Of a stretch of 21,791 bases of DNA, positions 3,370 through 21,479 are shown in pieces. The position numbers and the translations under genes are program-made. Position 1 is the first letter of the stretch. Every line of letters begins with the position of its first letter. Under the pieces are notes generated by a model. It did not search any database and had not been told where the DNA came from. It saw only the letters and a program-made list of their open reading frames with translations. The stretch is from a virus. The stretch is taken from the IMG/VR virus record IMGVR_UViG_3300017737_000098, positions 1 to 21,791 of that record, one strand, 5' to 3'.

Positions 3370-3627
3370 CTACTGTAACAAAACAAACACAGTGCTGCTG
3401 AGTGCTATTGCTAGTGCGCCTATAATGGCTGTTGCCCAACCCAAGAGCTGGCGATTGCGAAACTGGTCATTTTTTATGACTGCAGTTCGTATCTCAGCAA
3501 TGTCATCATCTTGCTTGGCCATGTGGTCTATTATACGATCAAGTTTGTTATGCAATTGGTTATACCTTTCTCCGCACAATTCAACATGTGCTTCAAGGCT
3601 CTCTTTTTCAATTTCAGTTGTTGACAT
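3370..3627 (-). CDS. Small coiled-coil protein with C-terminal membrane anchor (XhlA/holin-like layout)
   Basis: This 85-aa protein has an acidic and helical N-terminal part (ESLEAHVELCGERYNQLHNKLDRI, split here as residues 9-31) and continues as a likely coiled coil to about residue 58. It ends in one hydrophobic segment (LLGWATAIIGALAIALSS, about 61-83) that stops at the C-terminus. That layout resembles haemolysin XhlA-like phage proteins and some holin or spanin partners, but the sequence alone does not prove it. A start at 3627 has AGGG about 12 bases upstream. Lysis accessory or membrane-anchored virion protein are both possible. Confidence 0.7.
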   Translation of the reverse strand: MSTTEIEKESLEAHVELCGERYNQLHNKLDRIIDHMAKQDDDIAEIRTAVIKNDQFRNRQLLGWATAIIGALAIALSSTVFVLLQ

Positions 3628-3718
3628 CAGTCCACCCTATTGGTTCGTATAGTCGACGCTGGAGTGTTTATGTATGTGCCTGTAGTATTGCCTAGTGTGT
3701 GCCTTGTAGCATCACATA

Positions 3719-6213: not shown

Positions 6214-7461
6214 CTACCATTCCTTCTTAATAACAAAGTTGTTGCGGTTAAACTCAAGTCTATCGTTAAACTTAACTGCGCCGCCGCTTTTGCCCACAGC
6301 AACGTATCCTTCTGGATTTGTTACTTCATACCCTTTGTCGGTTCTTACAAAAGTATTCATACCTTCTACTGTATTTAACTTTTTAATCAACATCAGTTTA
6401 AGATTGTTGATTTGCTTGTAGACTGTTAACACACTAAACAGTGTGTCTTTGTTTTCAATAAAACTATTTTCTAAGTCTGCTATTTTTTGTAATCTGTTTT
6501 GTGCTGCAGGACTGTCAGGGCCGCCTTTGAGTTTTGAAATCTCACTTTGCATTTTGCCTTGGAAGAATTGTTGGAAACCTTTTATAAATGTATTACTGTC
6601 CCCCACACTACGATCTTGTCTAACTAGATTATTAATGTATGGTTGCACAAACTTTTTGAAGTCAGGTTGTTGTGTAACCGTATCAAACTTGTCCGAATCC
6701 GTACTATCAAGTGTGTTTCTTACTTGTGCTATACCGCGGCTGACAATATTATTTTGCTTGTCACTGAGTGTGGCACTGCCTGTCAAATCTTTGTAAAAAG
6801 CATCATCTACCCACACACTGCTGGTTTTGTTGTAGCCACTGACATCAACTCCAAAACTTGCACTTGCATCTGCTATGCTATCGCCTTCATATGCTGTGTG
6901 AAACACAATGCCCAAGTTTGCAGCACTGATACGTTTTGCCATTTCTGTGCCTGTGCGCACTGCATATGTGATGGTGTTTGGACGGAATGTCAAATACTCA
7001 TCACCATCAATCTTTTCTTCTTTGACACTGTCTTTGGTAAACATCATGTCACCTTGCACAATACCTTTGATGCCAAGTTTACTCAACTCATCCAAACACA
7101 GGTGCAGTTTGTCCTTGACTGGACTGTCACCATACACATCATCAATCTCTTCATGTGTGCGTCCTAGTTTGGGTGTTTTGCCAAACACACTTTTTGTACC
7201 TACAAAAAATTTGCCTGATTCAGGATCTGTGCCACAAACTATAGCAGGTGCACCATCCCATTTAACAGTGACTTGCTGGCTACGGTCCCCACCTTGATCC
7301 AGCATGCCACGCACACCTTCGAGGTATGCCAGTGCTTCACCAGCACCTGTGTGACCATCATCCAACACCAGATCCTCAAGATGTGTCATATGCACATTCT
7401 TGCCTTCTTTGCTTTCTATCAGCATCCAATCTCTTGGTGTGGTTATTTCTGTTATAAACAC
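6214..7461 (-). CDS. Nucleotidyltransferase/ligase-like protein (DUF6267-type) with capsid-targeting leader
   Basis: This 415-aa protein starts at a GTG overlapping the upstream stop by one base (TAGTG). VKWDGAPAI (residues 66-74) resembles the KxDG nucleotide-attachment motif of DNA/RNA ligases and capping enzymes, with K67 as the candidate lysine. GIVQGDMMF (133-141) and FRPNTITYAV (159-168) sit where ligase motifs III and IV would be expected. I recall this as an uncharacterised family in marine T4-like phages (DUF6267, from memory). The leader MFITEITTPRDWMLIESKEG contains LIE|S at 14-17, fitting prohead-protease cleavage. A ligase-like enzyme packaged in the head is inference; the fold could also be catalytically inactive. 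Confidence 0.8.
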   Translation of the reverse strand: MFITEITTPRDWMLIESKEGKNVHMTHLEDLVLDDGHTGAGEALAYLEGVRGMLDQGGDRSQQVTVKWDGAPAIVCGTDPESGKFFVGTKSVFGKTPKLGRTHEEIDDVYGDSPVKDKLHLCLDELSKLGIKGIVQGDMMFTKDSVKEEKIDGDEYLTFRPNTITYAVRTGTEMAKRISAANLGIVFHTAYEGDSIADASASFGVDVSGYNKTSSVWVDDAFYKDLTGSATLSDKQNNIVSRGIAQVRNTLDSTDSDKFDTVTQQPDFKKFVQPYINNLVRQDRSVGDSNTFIKGFQQFFQGKMQSEISKLKGGPDSPAAQNRLQKIADLENSFIENKDTLFSVLTVYKQINNLKLMLIKKLNTVEGMNTFVRTDKGYEVTNPEGYVAVGKSGGAVKFNDRLEFNRNNFVIKKEW

Positions 7462-9257
7462 TATGCTGCCTGCAGTGCTGCTAGTACGGCTGCTTTTAAC
7501 TTAGGATCTGCTGTGATAGTAGCCACTAGTGGTTTTACTTTTGTACTTGGTTGTGCTGCTGCTTTAGGTGCTGATTTGTCAATGCTCTTAATTGCTTTTT
7601 GATCAACAGCAAATACTGCATTACCAATTTTCAATTGAATCTGAGCATCGCCATCAGCATCTTTTGTGTCTAGCATAGCATTTACCACAGCCTGTTTGTC
7701 TTCACCTTTGGCATTTGTATAAGTGACTGTGTCACCTACCTGTGCAGTGCCTTTTGCTACTGCTGGCTTTGCATTTGGATCTGCATCAGCCTTTGCACCT
7801 GCATCTGCATCAGCGGTTTTTTCATCTTTGCTTCCTGCAGTTGGTGCATCTAAACCAGAAGTTTTAAATGCTGCATTAATAACTGCTTCATCGATGCCCA
7901 AATCTAATAACACTTGTAGCACTCCCACACTGTCTGTTGGTTTACCTGCTTTTTCCCAAGCAGCCATCATTTTTTTGGCAGTGTACTTTTGAGTAAACTC
8001 TGTGCCAATCTCTGCGCCTTTTTCCACTGCTTTGCTCATTGCAGCACCAATTGCACCTTTTATGGCATCAAATGGGCCTTCGTCAAGTCTTTTGCTGTAG
8101 GCAAAATCTACAGCAAAAACAATATTTCTAACTTGACTTTCTGTCAAAGGCCAAGCATAATCACCTGCTGCTGATTCGCCCATTGCTCTAGAAATTGCTC
8201 CGTCAATAAGTTTTAATGATTGATTTGCCATGCCCGGTTCCATCATCATTGTAAATGTCTTTGGATGTATCGCTGTTTCTATACCAGCGTCAACTAAATC
8301 TTGTAATGCCTGACGTTGCTGGCTGGCTACCTTCGTAGCAAATGCTTTAACTACACTGTCTAGTTCTTGGCCAGTCAATCCTTTTTCTATTTGTGCTTTT
8401 GCATAAGTTTCTACAGCAGTTCCAAAAGTTTTACCCAATGCTTTACCATCAGTAGCACCAGTCGCCGCAGCATCATAAACAATCTCAAGGAAGTTGTCGC
8501 CTTTTCCAATATAACTTGGATTAGCCAATAGGGTTTGTGCTTGATCATAATCATATTTGATAGTGTATCCACTTGCATTAATACTGGTACCAACCTCTCC
8601 CTTTAACAGATCTGCTTTTAAATCGGGTGCTGCTGCTGCATCTCCGCCGCCTTTGATTAAGTCACCCAGTTTACTTGCACCATATGCCATAACACCAGTT
8701 TTACCAGCACTGTATATTGCACTGCGAATGTCCTTGCCTTGGATCATTTGATCAACAAGTTTGAATAATGCCAGTGCGGCTGCACCTCCTACACCTGCGC
8801 CAGTTATGCCTGCTGCAGCAATCAATGCACCGTACAGTGCACCTTGTATGATAGGATGCTCTTCTGCAAAATCTCTATACTTTTGTACAATCTTCATGAC
8901 TGTGCCGTCGTCGCCGCCTAGTTTGTCTTTTAATTCTCCTGCGGCTTTATCATACTTGCCTGCAAACTGCTCCAATGGACCACTGTTGTATATTTTACTC
9001 TTAAGATCTTTCCAAGCATTGTTTACTGCCACTGCAGTGTCTTTGGCTTTGCCTATGCCTGTTCTGTTTACACCTGCATCATTGGCTGCACCTTGTAGAT
9101 TTGTAAACAATTGTGTGATTTGATCTCCAGTTAATTCTGCTTCTTTGATTGCGCGTCCGGCATTTTCCCATAATAGAGCCGATTGTTTGTTACTGGTATC
9201 TAAACTTTCATACAGTTTTGTATAACGTATACTAGGATATGTTTCTGTTATTTTCAT
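7461..9257 (-). CDS. Large head-region protein with membrane-active segment and two capsid-leader sites
   Basis: This 598-aa protein starts MKITETYPSIRYTKLYESLD, with LYE|S at residues 15-18 fitting T4 prohead-protease cleavage. Residues 136-167 and about 180-199 are hydrophobic and Gly/Ala-rich, a likely membrane-inserting region (HPIIQGALYGALIAAAG and onward). At 390-394 RLDEG provides a second (I/L)-x-E|G site, followed by PFDAIKGAIGAAMSKAVEKG and a helical domain to about 465. A low-complexity Ala/Asp/Lys linker then leads to a beta-type domain at 507-561 nearly identical to one in the next gene, then an Ala-rich tail. The start overlaps the upstream gene (ATGA). An ejected internal protein acting at the host membrane is plausible but unproven. 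Confidence 0.85.
   Translation of the reverse strand: MKITETYPSIRYTKLYESLDTSNKQSALLWENAGRAIKEAELTGDQITQLFTNLQGAANDAGVNRTGIGKAKDTAVAVNNAWKDLKSKIYNSGPLEQFAGKYDKAAGELKDKLGGDDGTVMKIVQKYRDFAEEHPIIQGALYGALIAAAGITGAGVGGAAALALFKLVDQMIQGKDIRSAIYSAGKTGVMAYGASKLGDLIKGGGDAAAAPDLKADLLKGEVGTSINASGYTIKYDYDQAQTLLANPSYIGKGDNFLEIVYDAAATGATDGKALGKTFGTAVETYAKAQIEKGLTGQELDSVVKAFATKVASQQRQALQDLVDAGIETAIHPKTFTMMMEPGMANQSLKLIDGAISRAMGESAAGDYAWPLTESQVRNIVFAVDFAYSKRLDEGPFDAIKGAIGAAMSKAVEKGAEIGTEFTQKYTAKKMMAAWEKAGKPTDSVGVLQVLLDLGIDEAVINAAFKTSGLDAPTAGSKDEKTADADAGAKADADPNAKPAVAKGTAQVGDTVTYTNAKGEDKQAVVNAMLDTKDADGDAQIQLKIGNAVFAVDQKAIKSIDKSAPKAAAQPSTKVKPLVATITADPKLKAAVLAALQAA
7575..7739 (-). repeat. Duplicated 55-residue domain, copy 1
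   Basis: This stretch codes for residues 507-561 of the 598-aa protein, from VGDTVTYTNAKGEDKQAVVN to KSIDK. By direct comparison 47 of 55 residues match the copy in the adjacent 256-aa protein. The DNA is more diverged, mostly at third codon positions, so the copying is old or the protein is under selection. The VGDTVTY start suggests a KOW/SH3-like barrel. Confidence 0.85.
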
Positions 9258-10024
9258 GCCGCTAACGCCTTCTTTAGTTCTTCTTTTTCAGCAGGTGTAA
9301 GTGCATCCAACTGTTTTTGTACATCTGCAGGAATTGCTGCTGCTGCACCCGGTGCTTGTGCTGCTGGTTCTGCAGATGCACCAGCAGATGCTGCTTTGTC
9401 TATGCTTTGCACTGCTTTTTTATCAACTGCAAATACGGCGCTACCCTTTTTTAGTTGTATTTGTTCATCGCCTTGTGCATCTTTTGTATCTAACATAGCA
9501 TTTACCACTGCTTGCTTCTTTTCGCCTTTGGCATTGGTGTATGTAACAGTGTCACCCACTTTAGGATCAACTGCTGGGCGATCACCACTTGCTACACCAC
9601 TTGCTGTTGGTTCATTGGGTTTGGGCTGTGCGCCTGCTGCAGCATCAGCGGTTGTGCCTGCACCTTTTTCGCCTCTGTTGACAGTTTTAAAAATTGTTTC
9701 TTGATACTTGGCCTTGATTGCACCTGAGATATAATCATCCAGTGCTTTGGCATCATCTGGATTGCCAGCAAATGCTGGTTCATTATTTTTTGGATCTGCA
9801 AAGTCTACAACCTTATTTACTGTGTCTGTGATCAGTGCTGGTGCATCTTTGGCATATGCTTGCGGATCGCGAGTTTTTAGTTGCGCCATTGCTTTTGTAA
9901 CATCACCTTTAACACCTTTGAGTACTGCAGGAAGTTGTTTTAGTTTTTCTTCATACTCTTGGTTGAGTTTTTCTGTTGCAGCATCAACTGGATCTGCTTC
10001 TAAAATTATCTGTGAAACTTTCAT
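9254..10024 (-). CDS. Head-region protein with capsid-targeting leader and duplicated SH3-like domain
   Basis: This 256-aa protein starts MKVSQIILEADPVDAATEK with ILE|A at residues 7-10, a near-perfect short version of the T4 internal-protein leader. Residues 15-115 are helical and charged. Residues 120-150 form a Pro/Ala/Gly linker, and residues 156-210 form the domain shared with the next gene. An Ala-rich linker and a C-terminal helix (LTPAEKEELKKALAA) follow. A TTAGG/GAAAG ribosome site precedes the ATG, and four bases overlap the upstream gene (ATGA). The layout of leader, helix, linker and small barrel suggests a processed internal or assembly protein. No enzyme motif is visible. Confidence 0.8.
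   Translation of the reverse strand: MKVSQIILEADPVDAATEKLNQEYEEKLKQLPAVLKGVKGDVTKAMAQLKTRDPQAYAKDAPALITDTVNKVVDFADPKNNEPAFAGNPDDAKALDDYISGAIKAKYQETIFKTVNRGEKGAGTTADAAAGAQPKPNEPTASGVASGDRPAVDPKVGDTVTYTNAKGEKKQAVVNAMLDTKDAQGDEQIQLKKGSAVFAVDKKAVQSIDKAASAGASAEPAAQAPGAAAAIPADVQKQLDALTPAEKEELKKALAA
9395..9559 (-). repeat. Duplicated 55-residue domain, copy 2
   Basis: This stretch codes for residues 156-210 of the 256-aa protein, from VGDTVTYTNAKGEKKQAVVN to QSIDK, and matches copy 1 at 47 of 55 residues. Seven of the eight differences are at charged or polar surface-type positions, as expected for a folded domain retained in two proteins of the same complex. Confidence 0.85.
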
Positions 10025-10329: not shown

Positions 10330-11061
10330 ATGTCAATACAAGATAATCCTGGCGGCCACTTCGCTGAATTGGCTCGCATTGCATACATGACACAAAAAGA
10401 AAGCAAGCCCATTGCCAAAAAGATGGGCTACACAAAAACAAAACTCATAGATCACAAGGGTGCAGAGTGCTTATTTTTAGAAAATGATCACACAATTGTG
10501 TTGGCATTTCGTGGCACAGAGCCCAAAGAGTTCAGTGATATCAAAGCAGATCTTAAGGCATGGAAGCGCAAAAGTGAAACTTGGGGCATGGTGCATGCAG
10601 GTTTTTACGAATATCTTGAGCGTATTTGGGAAAGTGTACTAAATCACATCAACTATGGCGACAGAGAAACAAAAAGCCTTTACATCTGTGGACACAGTCT
10701 GGGTGGTGCAATGGCAACACTAGCAGCCAGTAGACTGCAAGATCGTGTTGTGGCATGCTACACATATGGTTCACCACGTGCTGGCGGTCGTATTTGGAAC
10801 AGCAAATGTACATTTGAACATCACAGATATGTGAACAACAATGATGTTGTGCCACGTGTTCCGTTCTGGATCATGGGTTTTAGGCACTATGGTGAATTAC
10901 ACTACATCAATCATTATGGTAATATTCGCAAACTCACACCATGGCAGAAGTGCAAAGATCAATGGCGTGGACGATGGAGAGCATGGCAAAAACGCGAGTT
11001 CTTTGATGGTGCTAGAGATCACAGCATGGATTTGTACAGCAAAAAAATCAATAAAAATTGA
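10330..11061 (+). CDS. Class 3 (alpha/beta-hydrolase) lipase
   Basis: This 243-aa enzyme of the fungal-lipase-like class 3 family should hydrolyse acyl esters of glycerolipids. GHSLGGAMATLAASRL (residues 121-136) is the nucleophile elbow with Ser123. VNNNDVVPRVP (168-178) supplies Asp172, and ARDHSMDLY (228-236) supplies His231, completing the triad. IVLAFRGTEP (56-65) is the usual oxyanion-side strand. There is no signal peptide, so it probably acts in the cytoplasm or is released at lysis. It is transcribed divergently from the structural block and precedes the polymerase gene by 107 bases. Lipid turnover during infection, or envelope damage at lysis, are the likely roles. The family call is firm, the role is inference. 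Confidence 0.9.
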   Translation: MSIQDNPGGHFAELARIAYMTQKESKPIAKKMGYTKTKLIDHKGAECLFLENDHTIVLAFRGTEPKEFSDIKADLKAWKRKSETWGMVHAGFYEYLERIWESVLNHINYGDRETKSLYICGHSLGGAMATLAASRLQDRVVACYTYGSPRAGGRIWNSKCTFEHHRYVNNNDVVPRVPFWIMGFRHYGELHYINHYGNIRKLTPWQKCKDQWRGRWRAWQKREFFDGARDHSMDLYSKKINKN

Positions 11062-11112
11062 CCAAAAAACTTGTTTGCCCGATTTTGCCAAACTAAATAA
11101 AAAGTCACGTCA

Positions 11113-11142
11113 GTGACACCAGGCACAAATAAAACATACTAT
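11113..11142 (+). promoter_or_regulatory. Possible sigma70-type promoter before the polymerase gene
   Basis: GTGACA (11113-11118, 5 of 6 to the -35 consensus) is followed after 18 bases by TACTAT (11137-11142, 4 of 6 to the -10). The -35 lies in one arm of a small inverted repeat, GTCAC-GTCA-GTGAC (11104-11117), which could be an operator or a weak hairpin. A GAGG ribosome site lies before the ATG at 11169. The rest of the 107-base gap holds nothing else I can support. Confidence 0.35.
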
Positions 11143-11168
11143 AGGCATTTAGGCAAACAAGAGGCAGC

Positions 11169-12866
11169 ATGAAGTTACCAAACGATGCAGAGGCACAACT
11201 AAATCGATTACTAGGCGCATTTATAAGGCAAATACCAGAGGCACCAGAATATCGAAATAGACTAGTAGAAGAATGTGAGATTATTCTCCGACTTCGCTTT
11301 GTCGATTACTTCCTAACAATTTGCAATGTACTGACGCTAACCGCGGACATTCCCCATATGACCAGAGGTTCAGCAGGGTCAAGTCTTGTGTGTTACCTTT
11401 TAGGTATCACTGATGTAGATCCCATAAGATGGCAAATACCGGTTGCACGTTTCCTAAATCCTTTGAGGGATGATTTGCCAGATGTGGACATAGACTTTCC
11501 GCATTGGCAACAGGATACTGTGATGCAAAGAGTATTTGCGAAATGGCCTGGTCGCAGTGCAAGAATCAGTAACTATGTGCTATACAAGGAGCGCAGTGCT
11601 CGCAGAGAAGCAGCACGCCGTCTTGGCGCATCTGGCAAACTCCCTCGCAATTTTAAGTATGAAGATTATGACATCGATAAGGAAGAGGCAATGAGACTCG
11701 AAAAGAAACTATTAGGCAAAAAAAGATCAATAAGCAAACACTGTGGTGGCATTGTGATATTAAAGCACAAACTACCAAAAAGTCTAATCAACCAAGACAA
11801 TCAGTTGATGCTGGACAAAAGAGAAGTAGAAGATTTAGAACACTTAAAAATAGACATATTGGCCAACAGAGGACTATCACAACTGTTGGAAATAGACAGC
11901 GACACACCACTGGAAGCATATCCAGAACAAGATTTTGAAACATCACAACTGCTGTGCAGAGGTGATGTGTTGGGCGTAACGCAGGCTGAGTCCCCGGCCA
12001 TGCGACGCCTGTTCCAAGCAATACAACCACAATCAAAAAGTGACTGTGTGTTTGCCACAGCACTGATACGCCCTGTGGCCACAACAGGCAGACAAAAGGC
12101 AGCATTTTTCCAAGACTGGACAGAGCAGGCACTGGAAGATACCATAGTGTATGAGGATGATGCCATACGCAAGATAGCAAACTTGATTGGTTGTGACATG
12201 TATGAAGCAGATATGTATCGTCGTGCATTTGCAAAGCGTGACGAAGAACGTGTGATGGAGTTTATGGGGAGAATGGGAGAGTGTGAGGACAAAGAGCAGA
12301 TTATCCAAGAACTGTATGGTTTGGGTAACTTTGGATTGTGTAGAGCACATGCTGTGAATCTTGGAAGGCTGATTTGGGCATTAGCATATCAAAAAGCACA
12401 CAATCCAAAGCAGTTCTGGCGTGCAGCACTCAAACACTGTGTGGGATCATACAGACGTTGGGTACACAAAACAGAAGCAAAGAATGTGGGCTGGGATCTG
12501 CGTGACTTGGGTTATGAGAATGGCATTGTCAGCACACCACAAGCACAGTATCGCAAACATGGTTATTGGACACAGCCTGAATTTATGCCTGGCATGTTCA
12601 TACAAGAAACATGGGGTGATAGAGTAAACTTTGCAGGACTCATAGCCAATGGTAGAACATTCCGCGGCGAAAGTGGACGCTATGTTACATTTGTTACTGC
12701 AGGCATTGCCAATGGTGAGTATGTGGACATCACTGTAAAACGTCCGTTTTCACACAAGGATCATGATGTTATTGTGGGCAGTGGTAAGATACGCATGAGC
12801 AATGGTGCACGTTACATTGAATGTTATGATGCACAAGGACATAGACTAGAGCGTTATCTTGACTAA
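11169..12866 (+). CDS. Compact C-family (DnaE-type) DNA polymerase without PHP domain
   Basis: This 565-aa protein matches the bacterial replicative polymerase III alpha core. RGSAGSSLVCYLLGITDVDP (66-85) followed by FLNPLRDDLPDVDIDF (95-110) is the palm signature, with D107 and D109 as catalytic acids. KHCGGIVI (190-197) follows, and HLKIDILANRGL (225-236) gives the third acid, D229. VTQAESPAMRRLFQAIQP (270-287) and LGNFGLCRAHAVNLGRLIW (385-403) are finger-domain motifs. A short OB-fold-like part (FAGLIANGRTFRGESGRYVTF, about 488-508) ends it. The N-terminal PHP domain is missing, the clamp-binding region is reduced, and no proofreading exonuclease is present. E. coli DnaE is about 1160 aa. 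Replicates phage DNA, most likely with the helicase and primase here. Confidence 0.9.
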   Translation: MKLPNDAEAQLNRLLGAFIRQIPEAPEYRNRLVEECEIILRLRFVDYFLTICNVLTLTADIPHMTRGSAGSSLVCYLLGITDVDPIRWQIPVARFLNPLRDDLPDVDIDFPHWQQDTVMQRVFAKWPGRSARISNYVLYKERSARREAARRLGASGKLPRNFKYEDYDIDKEEAMRLEKKLLGKKRSISKHCGGIVILKHKLPKSLINQDNQLMLDKREVEDLEHLKIDILANRGLSQLLEIDSDTPLEAYPEQDFETSQLLCRGDVLGVTQAESPAMRRLFQAIQPQSKSDCVFATALIRPVATTGRQKAAFFQDWTEQALEDTIVYEDDAIRKIANLIGCDMYEADMYRRAFAKRDEERVMEFMGRMGECEDKEQIIQELYGLGNFGLCRAHAVNLGRLIWALAYQKAHNPKQFWRAALKHCVGSYRRWVHKTEAKNVGWDLRDLGYENGIVSTPQAQYRKHGYWTQPEFMPGMFIQETWGDRVNFAGLIANGRTFRGESGRYVTFVTAGIANGEYVDITVKRPFSHKDHDVIVGSGKIRMSNGARYIECYDAQGHRLERYLD

Positions 12867-15199: not shown

Positions 15200-15593
15200 G
15201 ATTCATCACACATTCATAAAAAGGACTGGTAAATGGCAACTGCCATTCGCAGTTGTGTCCAAGAAATGTTTCTCCCACCACACGTTGCTCAAGTTCAATT
15301 CCTTGAGCACGTTGTTCACTTGCCCAAGGTTCAGGATATTGCGGAATGCACACACTGTCAGTCCACAGCATATCGCGAAGGTCAATGCCATCAATTGTGA
15401 TGCTGTTTATAATTACATGCTGATTGGGTGTGCTGTTGGTTTTTCCACTGTGTACAATGGTTAACACATGATTGCCAAAGTCAAGTGTGTGTGAAAATTT
15501 TATGCCTTTCATCTCCGCATCATCTATGTACACTGCAATTTTGGCATCACCTGATATCGCTAAATTGATATCAAACTCAATTGTTTCATTCAC
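15189..15593 (-). CDS. Small beta-sandwich-like protein A
   Basis: This 134-aa protein starts at a GTG that overlaps the helicase stop region. Alternating hydrophobic strands (IEFDINLAISGDAKIAVYID, NHVLTIVHSGKT, HVIINSITIDGIDLRDMLW) suggest a jelly-roll or carbohydrate-binding-like fold. The tail is a distinctive NCEWQLPFTSPFYECVMNHV. No catalytic motif is visible. Its pattern is similar to the gene at 17032-17412 (GNHVLTIVHSGK against GQSIEFMMFGKD, and ITIDGIDL against LQYITLENL), so the two may be distant paralogues on either side of the helicase gene. I recall such small proteins in marine phages but no function. Substrate-presenting or binding partner is speculation. Confidence 0.75.
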   Translation of the reverse strand: MNETIEFDINLAISGDAKIAVYIDDAEMKGIKFSHTLDFGNHVLTIVHSGKTNSTPNQHVIINSITIDGIDLRDMLWTDSVCIPQYPEPWASEQRAQGIELEQRVVGETFLGHNCEWQLPFTSPFYECVMNHVR

Positions 15594-16983
15594 TCTTTAA
15601 TCCTGCCAACATGTTTTTGAGTTTGCTGCTCTGCACACTGGCTGTGATTTTGCCCACATCTTCATCATCTGCAGTGACAGTACCGCTGCCTTCTTTTGAC
15701 TTGATCTGTTCATATATACTGCTGCTCTGTTTCTTAAACTGTTGATACTCTTGATCTTCGCCCAAGTCTCGGATGCGCAAACTTTCAACATCAAACTCCA
15801 AGTCAATCTTTTGACCAACACCACTACTACTTCTAGTTTTCATCAACTGTATCTGATAGCGTCCACGCTCACGCATTGCACGACTTGTAAAGATACCAAA
15901 CACATTGTCTGCTGTGTTGATCTTACTGATACCACCAGATATCATACTGTGATCAAATTCAATTTCTTCAACAGCACTACGATTCAACTGACTTGCTGTT
16001 ACAAACACACAGTTGAGTTCTTTGGCCAAGTTGCGCAGTTCTTCACTCACATACTTGTCTTTAACAAACAAATCATTTGGACTTACCTTTGCACTCACTG
16101 GCATGATCAAATCCAAATAGTCTATCAGCAAGAAATCAATCTGCCAACCGTTTTTGATCTGTAGTTCTTTCAAGTATGCACGAATATCATTTACATTGCT
16201 TTGTGCTGGCATGTATTTGATTTGCAAGTTGCCTGCTTTCTTGCCCACCATTTTTACTTTCATTTCAACAGTGTCAAGATCTTTAAACACCTCTTTAGTG
16301 CTGACATTTGTCATCATGCTGTCGATGCGCATTGCACTCAAGCCTTCACTGAGTTCAAGTGTGAGATACACACCATTGAGTCCTGCTGTGGCCCAGTTCA
16401 CAGCCAAGTTCTGCATGAACAAACTCTTACCTGACCCTGATCCACCTGCAAATATGTTGAGTTCGCCTTTGTTCATGCCACCAAACAGTTTACGATCCAT
16501 AGCAGGCCAGCCTGTGCTGATCTGTCCGTTGTTGTCTTTGAGAGCCATAAGTCTGCCTCTTGGATCTTCAAAGTAGTCTGTGCCCATGTCTTTTGTGAGA
16601 CTGATTTGCACAGCATCCTTGATGATCTTTTCAACTGGATCATATTCGCCTTTCTCCAACAAGTCTGCACTTTTGAGAATGGCACGTTCTAGTTCTTGCC
16701 GCTTGGTGAATCCTTCAAACTCTGCTAAGAACCAATCGTTGTGACTTTCAGTGATGTCTGGCACTGGCTTTAGATCTACACCTGTCACAGCCTGCACTTG
16801 TTCGCGTGTGGGCAGTGTGCCATGATCCTTGCTGTGAGTGTCGACGAACTGTGCAGTGTCTCGCAAACTTCTGTCAAAGTTGTCCACATTGAAAATGTTC
16901 TGCACCCGCACAAAGTTTTGTGCATCATTCAGCATCATTTCCAAAAATAGTTTTTGTAAGTCTGGTGTGTATTCTTTACTCAT
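15586..16983 (-). CDS. Replicative DNA helicase, DnaB/T4 gp41 family
   Basis: This 465-aa protein is close to the length of T4 gp41 (about 475). The N-terminal 130 residues form the helical primase-interacting domain. The RecA-like domain carries Walker A FAGGSGSGKSLFM (178-190), Walker B IDFLLIDYLDL (282-292) and the sensor strand VFVTASQLNRSA (326-337). QLMKTRSSSGVG (379-390) holds the DnaB-type loop with K382 and R384. It unwinds the phage fork 5' to 3' as a hexamer using NTP, together with the primase at 18769. The C-terminal 50 residues are acidic and flexible. An unexplained 48-base gap separates it from the gene upstream, with no convincing promoter. Confidence 0.93.
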   Translation of the reverse strand: MSKEYTPDLQKLFLEMMLNDAQNFVRVQNIFNVDNFDRSLRDTAQFVDTHSKDHGTLPTREQVQAVTGVDLKPVPDITESHNDWFLAEFEGFTKRQELERAILKSADLLEKGEYDPVEKIIKDAVQISLTKDMGTDYFEDPRGRLMALKDNNGQISTGWPAMDRKLFGGMNKGELNIFAGGSGSGKSLFMQNLAVNWATAGLNGVYLTLELSEGLSAMRIDSMMTNVSTKEVFKDLDTVEMKVKMVGKKAGNLQIKYMPAQSNVNDIRAYLKELQIKNGWQIDFLLIDYLDLIMPVSAKVSPNDLFVKDKYVSEELRNLAKELNCVFVTASQLNRSAVEEIEFDHSMISGGISKINTADNVFGIFTSRAMRERGRYQIQLMKTRSSSGVGQKIDLEFDVESLRIRDLGEDQEYQQFKKQSSSIYEQIKSKEGSGTVTADDEDVGKITASVQSSKLKNMLAGLKSE

Positions 16984-17031: not shown

Positions 17032-17412
17032 TCAACACGCTACTTGTATGTACCATATGGGAAAATCTTTTTTATCAGGCAAGTGTATGTATCTTTTTTC
17101 TCTATCAAATCCAAAGTAAGGATCAAAAATACTATTGTGAAAATGCAAATTTTCTAATGTAATGTATTGTAATCTCAACTGCACTATCCTAACGTGCTTG
17201 TCATGCTGTATATGCCCTTGTTCTATTGTGGTATCTCTTTCATTGTCTTTGCCAAACATCATAAATTCTATACTTTGACCATAATTGTATTCAAATTCAA
17301 AAGTATGTTTTCCTTCCGCAAGTGTATTGGGTTTGATGCACAGGCTATTGATCACAAAACCAGCAGTGCCATTGCATTCTCCAAAGTATAGGTCAACACA
17401 CGCCTTAGGCAT
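17032..17412 (-). CDS. Small beta-sandwich-like protein B
   Basis: This 126-aa protein starts MPKACVDLYFGECNGTAGFV, overlapping the radical SAM stop by 8 bases. Strand-like segments (HTFEFEYNYGQSIEFMMFGK, HVRIVQLRLQYITLENLHFH) alternate hydrophobic and polar residues, suggesting a beta sandwich. The end is aromatic (FDPYFGFDREKRYIHLP, then FPIWYIQVAC). It resembles protein A at 15189-15593 in strand pattern and length, but identity is low and the link is tentative. No catalytic motif or signal peptide is seen. Its tight coupling to the radical SAM gene suggests it works with that enzyme, perhaps binding a carbohydrate or peptide substrate; this is inference. Confidence 0.75.
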   Translation of the reverse strand: MPKACVDLYFGECNGTAGFVINSLCIKPNTLAEGKHTFEFEYNYGQSIEFMMFGKDNERDTTIEQGHIQHDKHVRIVQLRLQYITLENLHFHNSIFDPYFGFDREKRYIHLPDKKDFPIWYIQVAC

Positions 17413-18775
17413 ATTGCTGTTCTTCTAAATTATGAATCAGTGTTTGTTGTTCTTCATTTTTAGGAACAACATATCCCAAACTGACACAATGATCAATCAG
17501 TTCTCTTCGCCATTGCAATCTTTGATCCAGTGTGCTCAACCCAATCCAATCGTTTTCACGCTTGCCAAGAGTGACTCCAAGTTCTTGACTCATTTTTTCC
17601 AATGGTGTGCCAGGAAGGATGGCCAGTGTTGTTCCAATGGCAATGCCAGTTATGGTGTTGGGTGCATACTTGCTTAATCGTTCATACATGATCTTATTTT
17701 CTTGTATTGTGCTTTCATCATCTGTGATATATCCCACAATCATGAGAAAGGTTCCTGTGATTCCATATTTTTGCATGCAGTGTACGCCATAAATTATATC
17801 TTCATTGCTAAACTTCTTTTGCATATGATCTCTCACACTTTCACTGAGATTTTCTATGCCAATTGCCACATGTGTTAGCCCAGCATCAGCACTCAGTTTC
17901 CATGTCTCTTCTGACATTTGATTTTTTGGCCTAAAGATAAATTGCCCTTCCCAAGTGATTTTATTTTTTGCAGTACAATTATATTCTGCCAGTGCAGCGC
18001 ACATTTCTTTGTAGGCTTTCATACTGCCGTTGATTAAACTGTCTGTAAACAAAAAATGATAAAGATTGTGTTTTTGACTTTGTAACATCATTTCATTTGC
18101 AATACTTTTGCCACTTCTAAAAACAAACTTTTTCCAATGCACATGTATATCACAAAATGTGCAACGTCTTACACATCCTCTGCTGCCTGTGATAGGTATT
18201 TGTTTATGGTACAAACTCAAGTCGTAACTGCTGTAGTCAGGTATTGGAAATTCATCTAGATTTTCAATTTGCGTCCATTCTTTTTTATCGTCGTGGTCAC
18301 CTCTTACTATGTCTACAATAGGCCACTCGCCTTCACTCACCACCCAATGATCACATAATTCTTGGTCTTTCCATTGTTCTCCAAGATTTTTTCCTTGCAA
18401 TCCTCCAGTGTTTAATCCAGGACCGCCCAGTATTATTTTGGTGTTGGGACTCATTGTTCTAATGTATACACACAACAGTTTGGTCATTCTTTGACATTGA
18501 TAACTAAAAATGCTCAATCCAATGTATTTAGGTTCAAATGAAAGCATTTTGCGCACATGCATTTGTATTGTAGCATCAAATTCCGACGCATCCTCAGGAG
18601 TTGTTTCAGCAATTGCATATCTTTTAAAATTTTCATCATCTTTGACATAGTGATTAAAATCATAAAATTTACCTGTGTGTCCGTGTTGTTGTAGCATGCT
18701 GATTAGTATCGCTGGAGCGGCTGGCGCAGTGTTTGTAAAAGTCACAGGCACACTAACAAACAATACATCTACCAT
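17405..18775 (-). CDS. Radical SAM enzyme, B12-binding-type architecture
   Basis: In this 456-aa protein, GSRGCVRRCTFCDIH (197-211) holds the CxxxCxxC motif (C201, C205, C208) that binds the 4Fe-4S cluster and S-adenosylmethionine. The N-terminal 180 residues look like the Rossmann-type cobalamin-binding domain usual in such enzymes (LFVSVPV, APAAPAILISMLQQHGHTG, IGLSIF, KIILGGPG). The DxHxxG cobalamin-ligating motif is not present, so cobalamin may bind weakly or not at all. Later segments (FTDSLINGS, VAIGIENLSESVRDHM, GTFLMIVGY) fit the radical SAM barrel. It overlaps primase upstream and the beta protein downstream. Methylation or another radical modification is likely; the substrate is unknown. 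Confidence 0.88.
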   Translation of the reverse strand: MVDVLFVSVPVTFTNTAPAAPAILISMLQQHGHTGKFYDFNHYVKDDENFKRYAIAETTPEDASEFDATIQMHVRKMLSFEPKYIGLSIFSYQCQRMTKLLCVYIRTMSPNTKIILGGPGLNTGGLQGKNLGEQWKDQELCDHWVVSEGEWPIVDIVRGDHDDKKEWTQIENLDEFPIPDYSSYDLSLYHKQIPITGSRGCVRRCTFCDIHVHWKKFVFRSGKSIANEMMLQSQKHNLYHFLFTDSLINGSMKAYKEMCAALAEYNCTAKNKITWEGQFIFRPKNQMSEETWKLSADAGLTHVAIGIENLSESVRDHMQKKFSNEDIIYGVHCMQKYGITGTFLMIVGYITDDESTIQENKIMYERLSKYAPNTITGIAIGTTLAILPGTPLEKMSQELGVTLGKRENDWIGLSTLDQRLQWRRELIDHCVSLGYVVPKNEEQQTLIHNLEEQQYA

Positions 18776-19731
18776 TTTTTTCTCATCAGATTAATTTTTA
18801 AACTGGTTGTTTGCTTTGCATCAACAATACTCTTAAGTGCGAACAGTTTTCCATAACGCACAACTGCATCATTGACATCTTTTACATCTGTTTCCCACTC
18901 AGGAAAACTAACACTCCATCCATACTCCAGTGCATCATCGATGAGCCGTTGTCCTGCACTGTCTCTGTCTGGTACCAGTATTACTTCTCTGCCCAGTGTG
19001 TCAATGATCTGTGCCTGTTGCTCACTGCACTGATTGCTCATTATGGCCACACCGCTGATGCACATTGCATCCAGTAATCCTTCTGCAACTACTACAAACC
19101 TAGCATCAGGCAACTGATTATCAATCCCATAAACGTAGCCACTATCATGATTAGTAAAGTATTTGGGTCTTCCGGCATTGTCTGTACTCCTTGCACTAAA
19201 ACCTATCACTTCGTTGTTCCAAGTAAAAGGCACAATTATACGTTTCCACATGCCTGCTGGTTTGCTGTTGCTCCACAATAATTTTTCCAACGGTAAACAC
19301 CTGTTCTCAGCATACTGTTGTATGTGTTTGGGTGCATCATCAAGTGTAACAACTCCGTCTGGCAATGGTCTTGGTTTGAACTCTACAACAATAGCATCTT
19401 CATCAGGTGTGAGAAGTTCAACTGTTTCTTTGATGCGCAGTGCTTCAATGTTGAGCATCTGTCGTGTGTTCTCATCTACACCCAACCATGTTAGTATTTT
19501 GCGCAACTTGAAACTGATGTGTCTGCCCGGTTGCCATCCTGTTTTGAATCCACAGTTAAAGCAGTGATAACTCACAGCATCGCCATTCATTATCACACCA
19601 CCTCTGCCGCGTTTGTCAACGGATTCACCATTGTGATGACAGCAAACAGCATTGAATGAAATCCATCCACCACTGCTTTGTTTGCGTTTACCAGGCAACG
19701 CATCAAACACACTTTGTTGTATACTGTTCAT
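18769..19731 (-). CDS. DNA primase, DnaG/T4 gp61-like
   Basis: This 320-aa primase has an N-terminal zinc ribbon (C30, H33 from AVCCHHNGES, and C57, C60 from SYHCFNCGF). The Toprim catalytic core carries VVVAEGLLDAM (213-223) with Glu217 and ILVPDRDSAGQ (251-261) with Asp255 and Asp257. TDVKDVNDAV (281-290) is a further conserved segment. The length is similar to T4 gp61 (about 340 aa) and shorter than bacterial DnaG. It makes RNA primers for lagging-strand synthesis and should pair with the gp41-like helicase in the same operon. Its start overlaps the SGNH gene stop (ATGA) and its stop overlaps the radical SAM start. Confidence 0.93.
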   Translation of the reverse strand: MNSIQQSVFDALPGKRKQSSGGWISFNAVCCHHNGESVDKRGRGGVIMNGDAVSYHCFNCGFKTGWQPGRHISFKLRKILTWLGVDENTRQMLNIEALRIKETVELLTPDEDAIVVEFKPRPLPDGVVTLDDAPKHIQQYAENRCLPLEKLLWSNSKPAGMWKRIIVPFTWNNEVIGFSARSTDNAGRPKYFTNHDSGYVYGIDNQLPDARFVVVAEGLLDAMCISGVAIMSNQCSEQQAQIIDTLGREVILVPDRDSAGQRLIDDALEYGWSVSFPEWETDVKDVNDAVVRYGKLFALKSIVDAKQTTSLKINLMRKKW

Positions 19732-20288
19732 GTGTGTATTATAGCATCTAATTGTGTTTTGATCAACTGAAAAATACGCTCATGCCCAGCATCATTTGGA
19801 TGCAAGTGATCAGCAATGTACTTTTGTCTATCCGGCATCAGCACATCTATCATGTGTGGCACACAATGCACATGCATGTATCTTAGGCCTTGTAGATTGC
19901 AAGCATTTTCAACAATTGACTTGGGATACCAATCATGTACATCTTCAATGTATGCACTGAGTTGATTGCTTACATAATCTACAACACTGTGTGTCAGCGC
20001 ACTGCCGCGTTTCTTTTGCTGTATGTAATTGAGATGTTCCCAACGTGCAGTGTGAGTGTTGTACCAACTGTTGCGATTGGGATGACTCCATCCAAACAGC
20101 ACCACATCATCTGTTTGTATTTGATGTTGTGTTTCACAAAAGTGTAGTGCTATCCATGGATTGCTGGCACTGCTGTCACTGTGTTGCACAAAGTCATAAC
20201 CATAGTGGTCAGCGGCAATACGTCCATAACAGGTCTTGGCTTCTTCTCCTAGACTGACACTACAACCATATTGATGTATTGCGGGCAT
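19728..20288 (-). CDS. SGNH/GDSL-hydrolase-like protein, 186 aa
   Basis: YGCSVSLGEE (7-16) supplies the block I serine S10. DSSASNPWIA (38-47) holds a candidate Asn43 (block III type). IADHLHPNDAGHERI near the C-terminus contains a D-x-x-H pair (D then H in DHLH) as in block V. This fits SGNH esterase/acetylhydrolase folds, which are about 180-230 aa. No signal peptide is present, so it is probably cytoplasmic. It follows a second SGNH-like gene through a one-base TAATG overlap and precedes primase. The substrate could be a sugar O-acetyl or another ester; this is not visible from sequence. Confidence 0.75.
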   Translation of the reverse strand: MPAIHQYGCSVSLGEEAKTCYGRIAADHYGYDFVQHSDSSASNPWIALHFCETQHQIQTDDVVLFGWSHPNRNSWYNTHTARWEHLNYIQQKKRGSALTHSVVDYVSNQLSAYIEDVHDWYPKSIVENACNLQGLRYMHVHCVPHMIDVLMPDRQKYIADHLHPNDAGHERIFQLIKTQLDAIIHT

Positions 20289-20962
20289 TAGAATCTATCC
20301 ACGCAGTATCCATCATACCAGTGTTCATCTGCTGTCCATCTACCATTGCGCACTCGTTTGTCTATGGCAGCAAACTGTAATCTTGTTTGTCCATCAACTG
20401 GCAGTTCTGGCAATACCTCATCCAAATAGTCTATGTGTTGTTGAGGAGTAGGATGATAGTCGCTGTCAAATGCAGCATTGTGCCAATCACCTTTGTATAT
20501 CACAGTGTGTACACTGGGTTTTATTGAGCCAAGTACACCATAAGTTTGTAGTATGATATCGCACTGACTCTTTACTTGTGTATCGCTTGTGTCTAAATCA
20601 ATCATACTGAGAAAATAATACTCACAAGTTGTGCTGTTCAATGCCATTTGTGCTGCTTGTATGTTTGCACAATCTCTGATGATACTGCCTTTGACATCGA
20701 CCAGTTGTGCTCCGACTGTTTGCCAACCATCCTCATAATGATCTTGTCTGTCACAACTTGTCCACATCACTATGACTGTGTCATTGTGGTTTATATCATG
20801 TCTGGCATGTGCTTCTGCAATGCTCCACAATATAAAACTATTACCTGCACCGCCCTCTGCAAAGTTGTAGTGCTGATCAAATTGAGGTGCTAGGGCATCA
20901 GCCCAGGTAGGCCACTTATAGCGTGTGAAACTACAACCAAATGTAAACAATCTTTTTTGCAT
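20288..20962 (-). CDS. SGNH/GDSL-hydrolase-like protein, 224 aa
   Basis: I place the start at the ATG at 20962 (MQKRLFTFGCSFTRYKWPTW) rather than the TTG at 20980, because family members start close to the first strand. No strong ribosome site is seen for either. GCS (S11) is block I. AEGGAGNSFILW (35-46) gives glycine/Asn41 of blocks II-III. VIVMWTS (64-70) is a core strand, and DSDYHPTPQQHIDYL holds the terminal Asp/His pair in D-x-H spacing. I recall similar proteins in marine phages. It is the first gene of the replication operon after the terminator at 20987. An esterase or acyl-transferring role on cell-surface or sugar substrates is likely. Confidence 0.78.
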   Translation of the reverse strand: MQKRLFTFGCSFTRYKWPTWADALAPQFDQHYNFAEGGAGNSFILWSIAEAHARHDINHNDTVIVMWTSCDRQDHYEDGWQTVGAQLVDVKGSIIRDCANIQAAQMALNSTTCEYYFLSMIDLDTSDTQVKSQCDIILQTYGVLGSIKPSVHTVIYKGDWHNAAFDSDYHPTPQQHIDYLDEVLPELPVDGQTRLQFAAIDKRVRNGRWTADEHWYDGYCVDRF

Positions 20963-20986
20963 ACTATTAGTTATGCTCAAAAAATA

Positions 20987-21056: not shown

Positions 21057-21479
21057 TTATAGTTTCTCAAGTAATTTTTTAAGTTTCTTTTTGCTTTTGC
21101 CCAGTGCTTTTGCTTTGGCAACAACATCTTTGTTGCTGGTATCATCACCAACAACCACAAGTCCAATCATGCCCATGCCTTTGTGTGGTGTACACCAATA
21201 GTAGTACACACCTGGTATATCAAATGTGATTGCAACTTCTTTGCCGTTCTTTGACTTTTTCGGAATATCAAAGCCTTCTGGTGCTGCAACAATTTCTACA
21301 TTGTGACCTTTACTGGTTGGTACCCACGTGATGGTATCACCTGCTGCAACTCTTGCAATCTCTTGTGAGTATACCATTTTGTTGCCATCAGCATCTTTGT
21401 TCAACATTTCAATTGTGGTTGCATTTGCAGTTGTGGCAGCAAACAGCATTGTGATTGCTATTGTTAGATTTTTGAACAT
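21057..21479 (-). CDS. Pseudoazurin (blue copper protein), exported
   Basis: This 140-aa protein has a signal peptide (MFKNLTIAITMLFAATTANA, cleaved after about residue 20). The mature part is a cupredoxin with type 1 copper ligands H59 (SKGHNVE), C96, H99 and M104 (YYYWCTPHKGMGM). The Cys-x2-His-x4-Met spacing and the C-terminal Lys-rich helices (VAKAKALGKSKKKLKKLLEKL) match pseudoazurins rather than plastocyanins. It would carry single electrons in the periplasm, classically to nitrite or nitrous-oxide reductase or cytochrome peroxidase. AGGGA precedes the ATG by about 8 bases, and a terminator follows. As a phage gene it is an auxiliary metabolic gene. Host origin is likely, but I see no sharp composition change. 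Confidence 0.93.
   Translation of the reverse strand: MFKNLTIAITMLFAATTANATTIEMLNKDADGNKMVYSQEIARVAAGDTITWVPTSKGHNVEIVAAPEGFDIPKKSKNGKEVAITFDIPGVYYYWCTPHKGMGMIGLVVVGDDTSNKDVVAKAKALGKSKKKLKKLLEKL

Follow-up and report, generated by a model that had tools for sequence, protein, structure and literature searches.

Among the closest described counterparts of the enzyme reported here is the split minimal Pol III alpha of the group 2.2 jumbo phages, which occurs in genomes that also encode a PolB, and for which cooperation with PolB was suggested by the authors (Iyer et al. 2021, PMC7824862). For the marine jumbo phage cluster PGC_A, part of the published account puts the share with PF07733, a Pol III alpha NTPase domain, at 51.9% (PMC9123017), and the presence of two DNA polymerase families within one phage genome is reported to be rare (2 subtrees; PMC11348598). 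Among the bacterial enzymes, Bacillus DnaE does not proofread and elongates RNA primers, with PolC supplying the proofreading in trans (PMC5627055), and H760 of E. coli Pol III alpha is a presumptive steric gate (PMC8485763). The gp32 protein of T4 is an autogenous repressor of its own mRNA, acting through a folded 5' element and repeats, and ssDNA is thought to derepress this message (PMC535899).

The window—the whole stretch of DNA analysed here—is an entire virus record of 21,791 bases and is clearly a fragment. It encodes an unsplit minimal DnaE, which shares with the split form that both are PHP-less C-family cores in phages with a B-family polymerase; the phage supergroup is probably also the same, judged by the gp43 of a 202.9-kb relative, record G001. 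The split enzyme is made of two small proteins from distant genes, whereas the window encodes a single chain that bears an OB domain. The PF07733 gene of PGC_A likewise comes from marine jumbo phages, as do the genomes with minimal DnaE, a comparison that is made by the domain presence reported in that part of the account alone. Bacterial DnaE1 and DnaE3 are alike in palm, thumb, fingers, OB fold and catalytic residues, but the minimal DnaE has no PHP domain, clamp motif or tau-binding tail; DnaE2/ImuC is, by analogy, also an accessory C-family enzyme, although the minimal DnaE differs from it too in having no PHP. In the limited literature searched, the split form was the only minimal Pol III alpha seen to be described for PolB-encoding phages, and no earlier report was found of the unsplit enzyme, its coexistence with the split form and gp43, or an operator that it has in common with gp32.

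Fold and catalytic residues of the minimal DnaE

The gene is an open reading frame of 565 aa with an ATG start, and its features are as follows.

11169–12866, + strand: minimal DnaE-type (C-family) DNA polymerase, 565 aa (Pfam, PHROGs and PDB matches, AlphaFold2 model)
11481–11489, + strand: catalytic motif in PDVDID, with D105 and D107 corresponding to E. coli D401 and D403 (alignment to E. coli; invariant in alignment A3)
11853–11855, + strand: third catalytic aspartate, D229, corresponding to E. coli D555 (alignment to E. coli; invariant in A3)
12348–12350, + strand: H394, counterpart of the presumptive steric-gate H760 of E. coli (alignment to E. coli; PMC8485763)
12612–12863, + strand: C-terminal OB-fold domain, aa 482–565 (AlphaFold2 model and fold matches)

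The protein matches DNA_pol3_alpha over residues 24–232 (Pfam, 6e-42), the finger domain over residues 247–364 (Pfam, 2e-13) and phrog_405 (PHROGs, 2.6e-61). Pol III alpha chains are its top matches when the sequence is compared with solved structures in the PDB, and they are also the best fold matches of an AlphaFold2 model (pLDDT 87.7, pTM 0.87) whose input, alignment A3, holds 48 minimal DnaE members with 35–97% identity. Compared with Taq Pol III alpha (3e0d) using VIA-align, residues 9–558 of the model align to residues 305–1121 of the chain (Z 32.5, 520 residues aligned), and the palm, thumb, fingers and OB fold are all covered. D105, D107 and D229 fall on E. coli D401, D403 and D555, and these three, together with D109, are invariant in the 48 diverse members of A3. 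With the palm aspartates, finger motifs and Pol III alpha fold all present, the product is confirmed as a C-family polymerase.

Pfam finds no PHP domain in the protein, and since the fold match starts only at about residue 305 of 3e0d, the first ~300 residues, which form PHP, are absent. The segment corresponding to E. coli 808–962, which bears the clamp motif QADMF at 920, is shrunk to ~29 residues; QADMF is absent, and a QxxLF-like motif is missing from the stretch between fingers and OB fold in nearly all 48 members. The tau-binding tail of bacterial Pol III alpha is missing as well. A preliminary description, made from the window sequence before this analysis, had proposed a minimal DnaE-type enzyme without PHP, with a much reduced clamp-binding region and an OB-like end, and had suggested structure prediction as a check on clamp contact; domain searches, model and fold matches bear it out on each of these points. 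It was also right that all three catalytic aspartates are kept, but its choice of D107, D109 and D229 is off by one motif position.

The gene appears with the same extent across its relatives. An aligned ATG start is found in 62/62 close relatives, nearly all of which have stop codons shortly upstream, and among these 62 no in-frame PHP part was found ahead of the ATG, so that the loss of such a part by assembly error, which the preliminary description had raised, is not borne out. Complete viral open reading frames of the family, as recovered from a wider query, are 551–616 aa long (a query with L103 alone for viral relatives gave no matches) and have about 97–154 residues ahead of the DxD motif, with PDxDxD mostly near residue 100; in those relatives from bacterial genomes that were measured, 217–632 aa precede DxD, apart from one, cut by a contig end, with 80. 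More than 100 distinct full-length sequences of the unsplit enzyme are among the matches listed, and dN/dS values of 0.02–0.10 show that it is under strong purifying selection. BFVD contains further short entries from phages, and the minimal DnaE is therefore not called the smallest known C-family enzyme.

Phylogenetic relationships

A tree was constructed with DnaE1, DnaE2, DnaE3, PolC and phage references, and in it 19 minimal enzymes group as a single clade with 100/100 support, set apart by a long branch and separate from DnaE1, DnaE2 and PolC. The preliminary description had called for this comparison, and the answer is a separate viral clade. Its position on the DnaE2 side of the tree is weakly supported (82/98). 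Grouping of the minimal enzymes with DnaE1/DnaE3 is rejected (AU p 0.00022), as is an exclusive grouping with DnaE2 (AU p 0.011), where the AU values serve as guides, the reference set being limited and selected in part for its resemblance to the query, with groups that were set after the first tree. Membership of DnaE2 is not supported by this second test, and PF00817 has no match, so that no Y-family/ImuB partner was found, in 10 records including G001, most of them fragments. A DnaE2-like mutasome is therefore not supported.

Other DNA polymerases in the same genomes

Record G001, the 202.9-kb record of locus L081, encodes a 566-aa minimal DnaE that is 97% identical to the window protein, and it is related to the window through collinear blocks with 76–88% nucleotide identity and a gene order common to both. 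It also encodes a B-family gp43 with PolB and exonuclease domains (phrog_262, 3e-184), whose closest relatives are in Sinorhizobium phage Phosso and Agrobacterium phage Atu_ph07; gp43 is thus seen in relatives of the window and not within its own 21.8-kb contig. Genes for gp44, TerL, gp32 and DexA-like proteins are also present in G001. PF02916, the gp45 clamp, has no match in this record, which is uninformative because clamps diverge.

A second C-family system is encoded in G001 by two genes, an N unit of 175 aa (83827–84354) and a C unit of 212 aa (160885–161523; hhalign 97.7%, E 1.7e-12; phrog_11778), the latter with the motifs PDIDIDF, HNTGVYF, KLDLLN, IRPGK and KKSH. Homologues of both units are found in cultivated jumbo phages such as PA5oct, a C-unit homologue is also present in Phosso, Atu_ph07 and GAP32, and the C unit occurs together with minimal DnaE in G002, G003 and G010 as well. 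By sequence comparison, the G001 pair matches the split enzyme that Iyer et al. reported (PHROG 11127 and 11778). Two other candidates for the C unit were discarded: phrog_11279, with an hhalign probability of 1%, and 121Q gene 9, 'DNA polymerase III', which gave no match and whose sequence reads as a DnaQ-type exonuclease. The window-type protein is a third polymerase system in G001, beside gp43 and the split Pol III alpha, and since split pair and unsplit enzyme coexist there, it is not simply the fused form. G001 appears not to be a chimera: its 101–202 kb half is collinear with G002, its 5–43 kb part, gp43 included, is collinear with G022, a record from the metagenome that also yielded G002, and base composition is even along its length.

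Two further genomes combine the minimal DnaE with another polymerase. The 484-kb huge phage LR756508 encodes a 574-aa minimal DnaE and a PolB, and G020 has a minimal DnaE and a full-size DnaE in two open reading frames, with a PHP-like N-terminus recognized by eye. The DnaE frames of G020 (54614–59995, L278/L279) are separated by a gap of ~1.2 kb near the catalytic PDxD, not far from where the minimal phage version is split, and this gap may be an intron or intein. The PolB of LR756508 (L300, 258000–272000) is interrupted too, as two open reading frames with extra segments, which suggests inteins or introns; gp44 of this phage also matches in two pieces.

PHP was not found in the whole of G001 nor in five other records, RNase_T/DnaQ was not found in G001, and the records searched yielded no DnaQ-type gene. 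The preliminary description had asked whether the genome encodes a B-family polymerase, which would make the enzyme accessory, a DnaQ-type exonuclease or a split PHP gene; the last two did not turn up in the records searched, and the first is present in the relative whose minimal DnaE is nearly the same as that of the window. Its implication that the minimal DnaE substitutes for a B-family polymerase is contradicted by the gp43 of G001, with polymerase and exonuclease domains, and by the PolB of LR756508. Nor is a separate exonuclease or PHP protein required for fidelity, as it had supposed, since gp43 bears an exonuclease domain.

Gene neighborhood

The genes for a gp41-like helicase and a gp61-like primase that the preliminary description had placed alongside the polymerase are indeed present in the window.

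15586–16983, − strand: gp41/DnaB-like replicative helicase (Pfam, PHROGs; within 4 kb of the polymerase in 105/125 loci)
18769–19731, − strand: gp61-like Toprim primase (Pfam, PHROGs)
10330–11061, + strand: class 3 lipase-like gene 5' of the polymerase and sharing its strand (25/125 loci)

Neighbors were counted at 125 loci with distinct full-length polymerases, where contig ends make all counts lower bounds. The 105 loci with gp41 at no more than 4 kb comprise 84 with it on the opposite strand and 21 with it on the same strand, gp61 is near the polymerase in at least 63, and in the clade of the window the polymerase and primosome genes are on opposite strands. An EndoIII-type HhH-GPD glycosylase (Pfam 1.7e-18) is encoded on the polymerase strand in 16 of the 125, and L109 has a phage endonuclease I directly 5' of the polymerase. 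The EndoIII-like gene adjoins minimal DnaE on the same strand in L113, L121, L123, L125 and L138, and in several of these it lies between gp41 and DnaE; glycosylase and polymerase are a possible phage base-excision-repair module.

Several other genes were noted. A DUF6267/phrog_455 protein (2e-102; window 6214–7461, − strand) is conserved near the polymerase in 33 of the 125 loci. Between primase and helicase the window encodes a radical SAM protein whose B12-binding match is weak (17405–18775, − strand), and a different radical-SAM-like protein occupies this slot in G001. The gene at 21057–21479 (− strand), which may be an auxiliary metabolic gene, encodes a copper-binding protein of the plastocyanin/azurin family (Pfam 1e-17), and the N-terminus of this protein is signal-like. 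Adjoining open reading frames of 598 and 256 aa (7461–9257 and 9254–10024, − strand) have a near-identical stretch in common (VGDTVTYTNAKGE..KQAVVNAMLDTKDA..), apparently through local duplication, and two tandem proteins of SGNH/GDSL-like appearance, one with a weak Pfam match, are encoded at 19728–20288 and 20288–20980 (− strand); similar ones recur in G001.

A leader architecture common to the polymerase and gp32

The polymerase gene is preceded by a hairpin and a series of AGGCA repeats, and the same repeats recur before one other gene of the window.

11094–11099, + strand: TAAATA, a predicted T4-late-promoter-like element upstream of the leader (sequence)
11104–11117, + strand: leader hairpin GTCAC-GTCA-GTGAC (arms vary and pairing is kept in relatives)
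11121–11166, + strand: four AGGCA repeats just 5' of the ATG (motif count)
11191–11243, + strand: three more AGGCA repeats within the first codons (motif count)
3677–3704, − strand: three AGGCA repeats 5' of an 85-aa gene (motif count)
3370–3627, − strand: the 85-aa gene, a third AGGCA regulon candidate with a hydrophobic C-terminal stretch by eye (open reading frame and leader repeats)

At least two copies of AGGC[AT] are found in the last 60 nt of 93/110 polymerase leaders and 64/78 gp32 leaders, and in none of the 80 gp41 or 62 gp61 leaders; the expectation per leader is 0.6%. When AGGC[AT] is counted over all leaders of a genome, polymerase and gp32 are the two highest in G001, G003 and G010; in G002 gp32 leads and the second place is a tie that includes the polymerase. 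The motif is common, in the same genomes, essentially only to the polymerase, gp32 and one 85-aa gene. It is strand-specific, with 270 AGGC (257 AGGCA, 12 AGGCT and 1 AGGCG) versus 3 GCCT in polymerase leaders, and its copies are spaced by 10–11 nt there and more loosely in gp32 leaders. Retention follows identity to the window polymerase: 45/46 leaders at 75% or more, 40/47 at 60–75%, 8/12 at 50–60%, and 0/5 below 50%; since these last five have no repeats, the proposed control is not universal. The gp32 leaders of four cultivated relatives that are not among the close minimal DnaE matches (Phosso, PA5oct, BF and Vibrio 2.275) have 0–1 AGGCA copies, and the motif therefore seems lineage-specific.

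A stem of at least six pairs lies beside a GGC[AT] repeat in 64/97 polymerase leaders (9.0 in shuffles) and 55/75 gp32 leaders (7.8 in shuffles). The hairpin arms differ among subgroups with pairing retained, and RNAalifold yields only four consensus pairs, three of them covarying through double changes, the small number being due to poor alignment of the arms across subgroups. No Rfam family matches the polymerase leader, and no classical sigma-70 promoter was found by exact hexamers; TAAATA is present in 68 of 97 distinct polymerase leaders, and the full TATAAATA in only 13.

This is the layout of the T4 gp32-type operator, a folded 5' element followed by repeats that run through the ribosome-binding region and over the translation start, and it is present at gp32 itself (PMC535899). 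The repeat is AGGCA here and UUAAA in T4, the folded element is a hairpin here whereas T4 has a known pseudoknot, and here the arrangement also precedes a polymerase gene. By this analogy, gp32 is the putative binder of the AGGCA leaders.

Proposed role of the minimal DnaE

We propose, at about even odds or slightly better, that the minimal DnaE serves a lineage of marine, T4-related jumbo phages as an accessory gap-filling polymerase that does not proofread and is probably controlled together with the SSB by ssDNA. The accessory status rests on the second replicase encoded in G001 (gp43), LR756508 (PolB) and G020 (full-size DnaE), and repair neighbors, the HhH-GPD glycosylase at 16 loci and endonuclease I in L109, speak for gap filling. 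The reduced architecture, the purifying selection, the link to the fork through gp41 and the leader features found also at gp32 count in favor of the proposal as well. The genome would be copied by gp43, with its exonuclease domain, and the minimal DnaE, stripped of PHP and of the parts that bind clamp and tau, would be expected to synthesize brief tracts of DNA without proofreading. In this scheme gp32 or another regulator would bind the polymerase and gp32 leaders and repress their translation; as ssDNA gaps build up, gp32 would shift to the DNA and thereby free both messages, and the polymerase would then be made when gaps need filling or lesions need passing, after which gp43 would take over and proofread. 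A broader reading, in which one genome with three polymerase systems (gp43, split Pol III alpha and unsplit minimal DnaE) has wired the unsplit one with its SSB into an ssDNA-sensing translational regulon, an SOS-independent damage response making a gap-filling polymerase on demand, is more tentative, and we consider it less likely than not.

Primer extension at the primosome is a strong rival, although on balance we think it rather unlikely. Here the enzyme would extend gp61 primers briefly and hand them to gp43, as Bacillus DnaE does to PolC, with the same absence of its own proofreading and the same correction in trans. The helicase gene that adjoins the polymerase in most loci fits such a fork role equally well, the closeness to gp41 and gp61 is conserved in both orientations, and a fork enzyme would also suit co-expression with the SSB. 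T4 gp43 extends primers alone, and in cultivated jumbo phages belonging to the same group gp43, gp41 and a primase are retained with no close match to minimal DnaE. The opposite strands of polymerase and primosome genes in the window clade also count against it, and the Nth and endonuclease I neighbors, with the ssDNA-linked control, suggest gaps and repair over every Okazaki fragment.

The regulatory part of the gap-filling proposal has its own competitor, that the AGGCA repeats act on DNA, as promoter elements, origin iterons or transcription-factor sites, and so connect the gene with gp32 at the level of transcription or replication and not of translation. The late-promoter-like TAAATA upstream of most leaders and a spacing in polymerase leaders close to one DNA helical turn are what this would predict. 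Nearly every copy of the motif reads in coding orientation, whichever strand the gene is on, the repeats sit between hairpin and start codon and extend into the first codons, their spacing is looser in gp32, and the layout is that of the T4 gp32 operator, all of which make action on DNA rather unlikely.

That the minimal DnaE is the main replicase of these phages appears very improbable. It lies beside helicase and primase genes, and PolB is found in only 2/19 records with minimal DnaE, but the PolB-less records are fragments, G010 and G002 are without a gp44 clamp-loader match too, and G022, from the metagenome of G002, carries the gp43 side. The enzyme has no domain for contact with clamp or exonuclease, and its replacement of gp43 is contradicted by the gp43 of G001 and the PolB of LR756508, with the full DnaE of G020 as a further case. 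Finally, truncation or misassembly with loss of a PHP part, for which the short length of the gene alone speaks, is excluded for practical purposes by the number of independent contigs with the same length and start, and the upstream stops, the genome without PHP and a dN/dS below about 0.1 agree.

Implications

An unsplit 565-aa enzyme is thus encoded beside primosome genes, under a leader architecture that it has in common with the SSB. It provides a compact natural C-family catalytic core for studies of structure and fidelity, and a DnaE-like gene on a T4-like contig should not be presumed to encode the replicase. If the operator is shared, the phage would couple an accessory polymerase to free ssDNA without the host SOS system.
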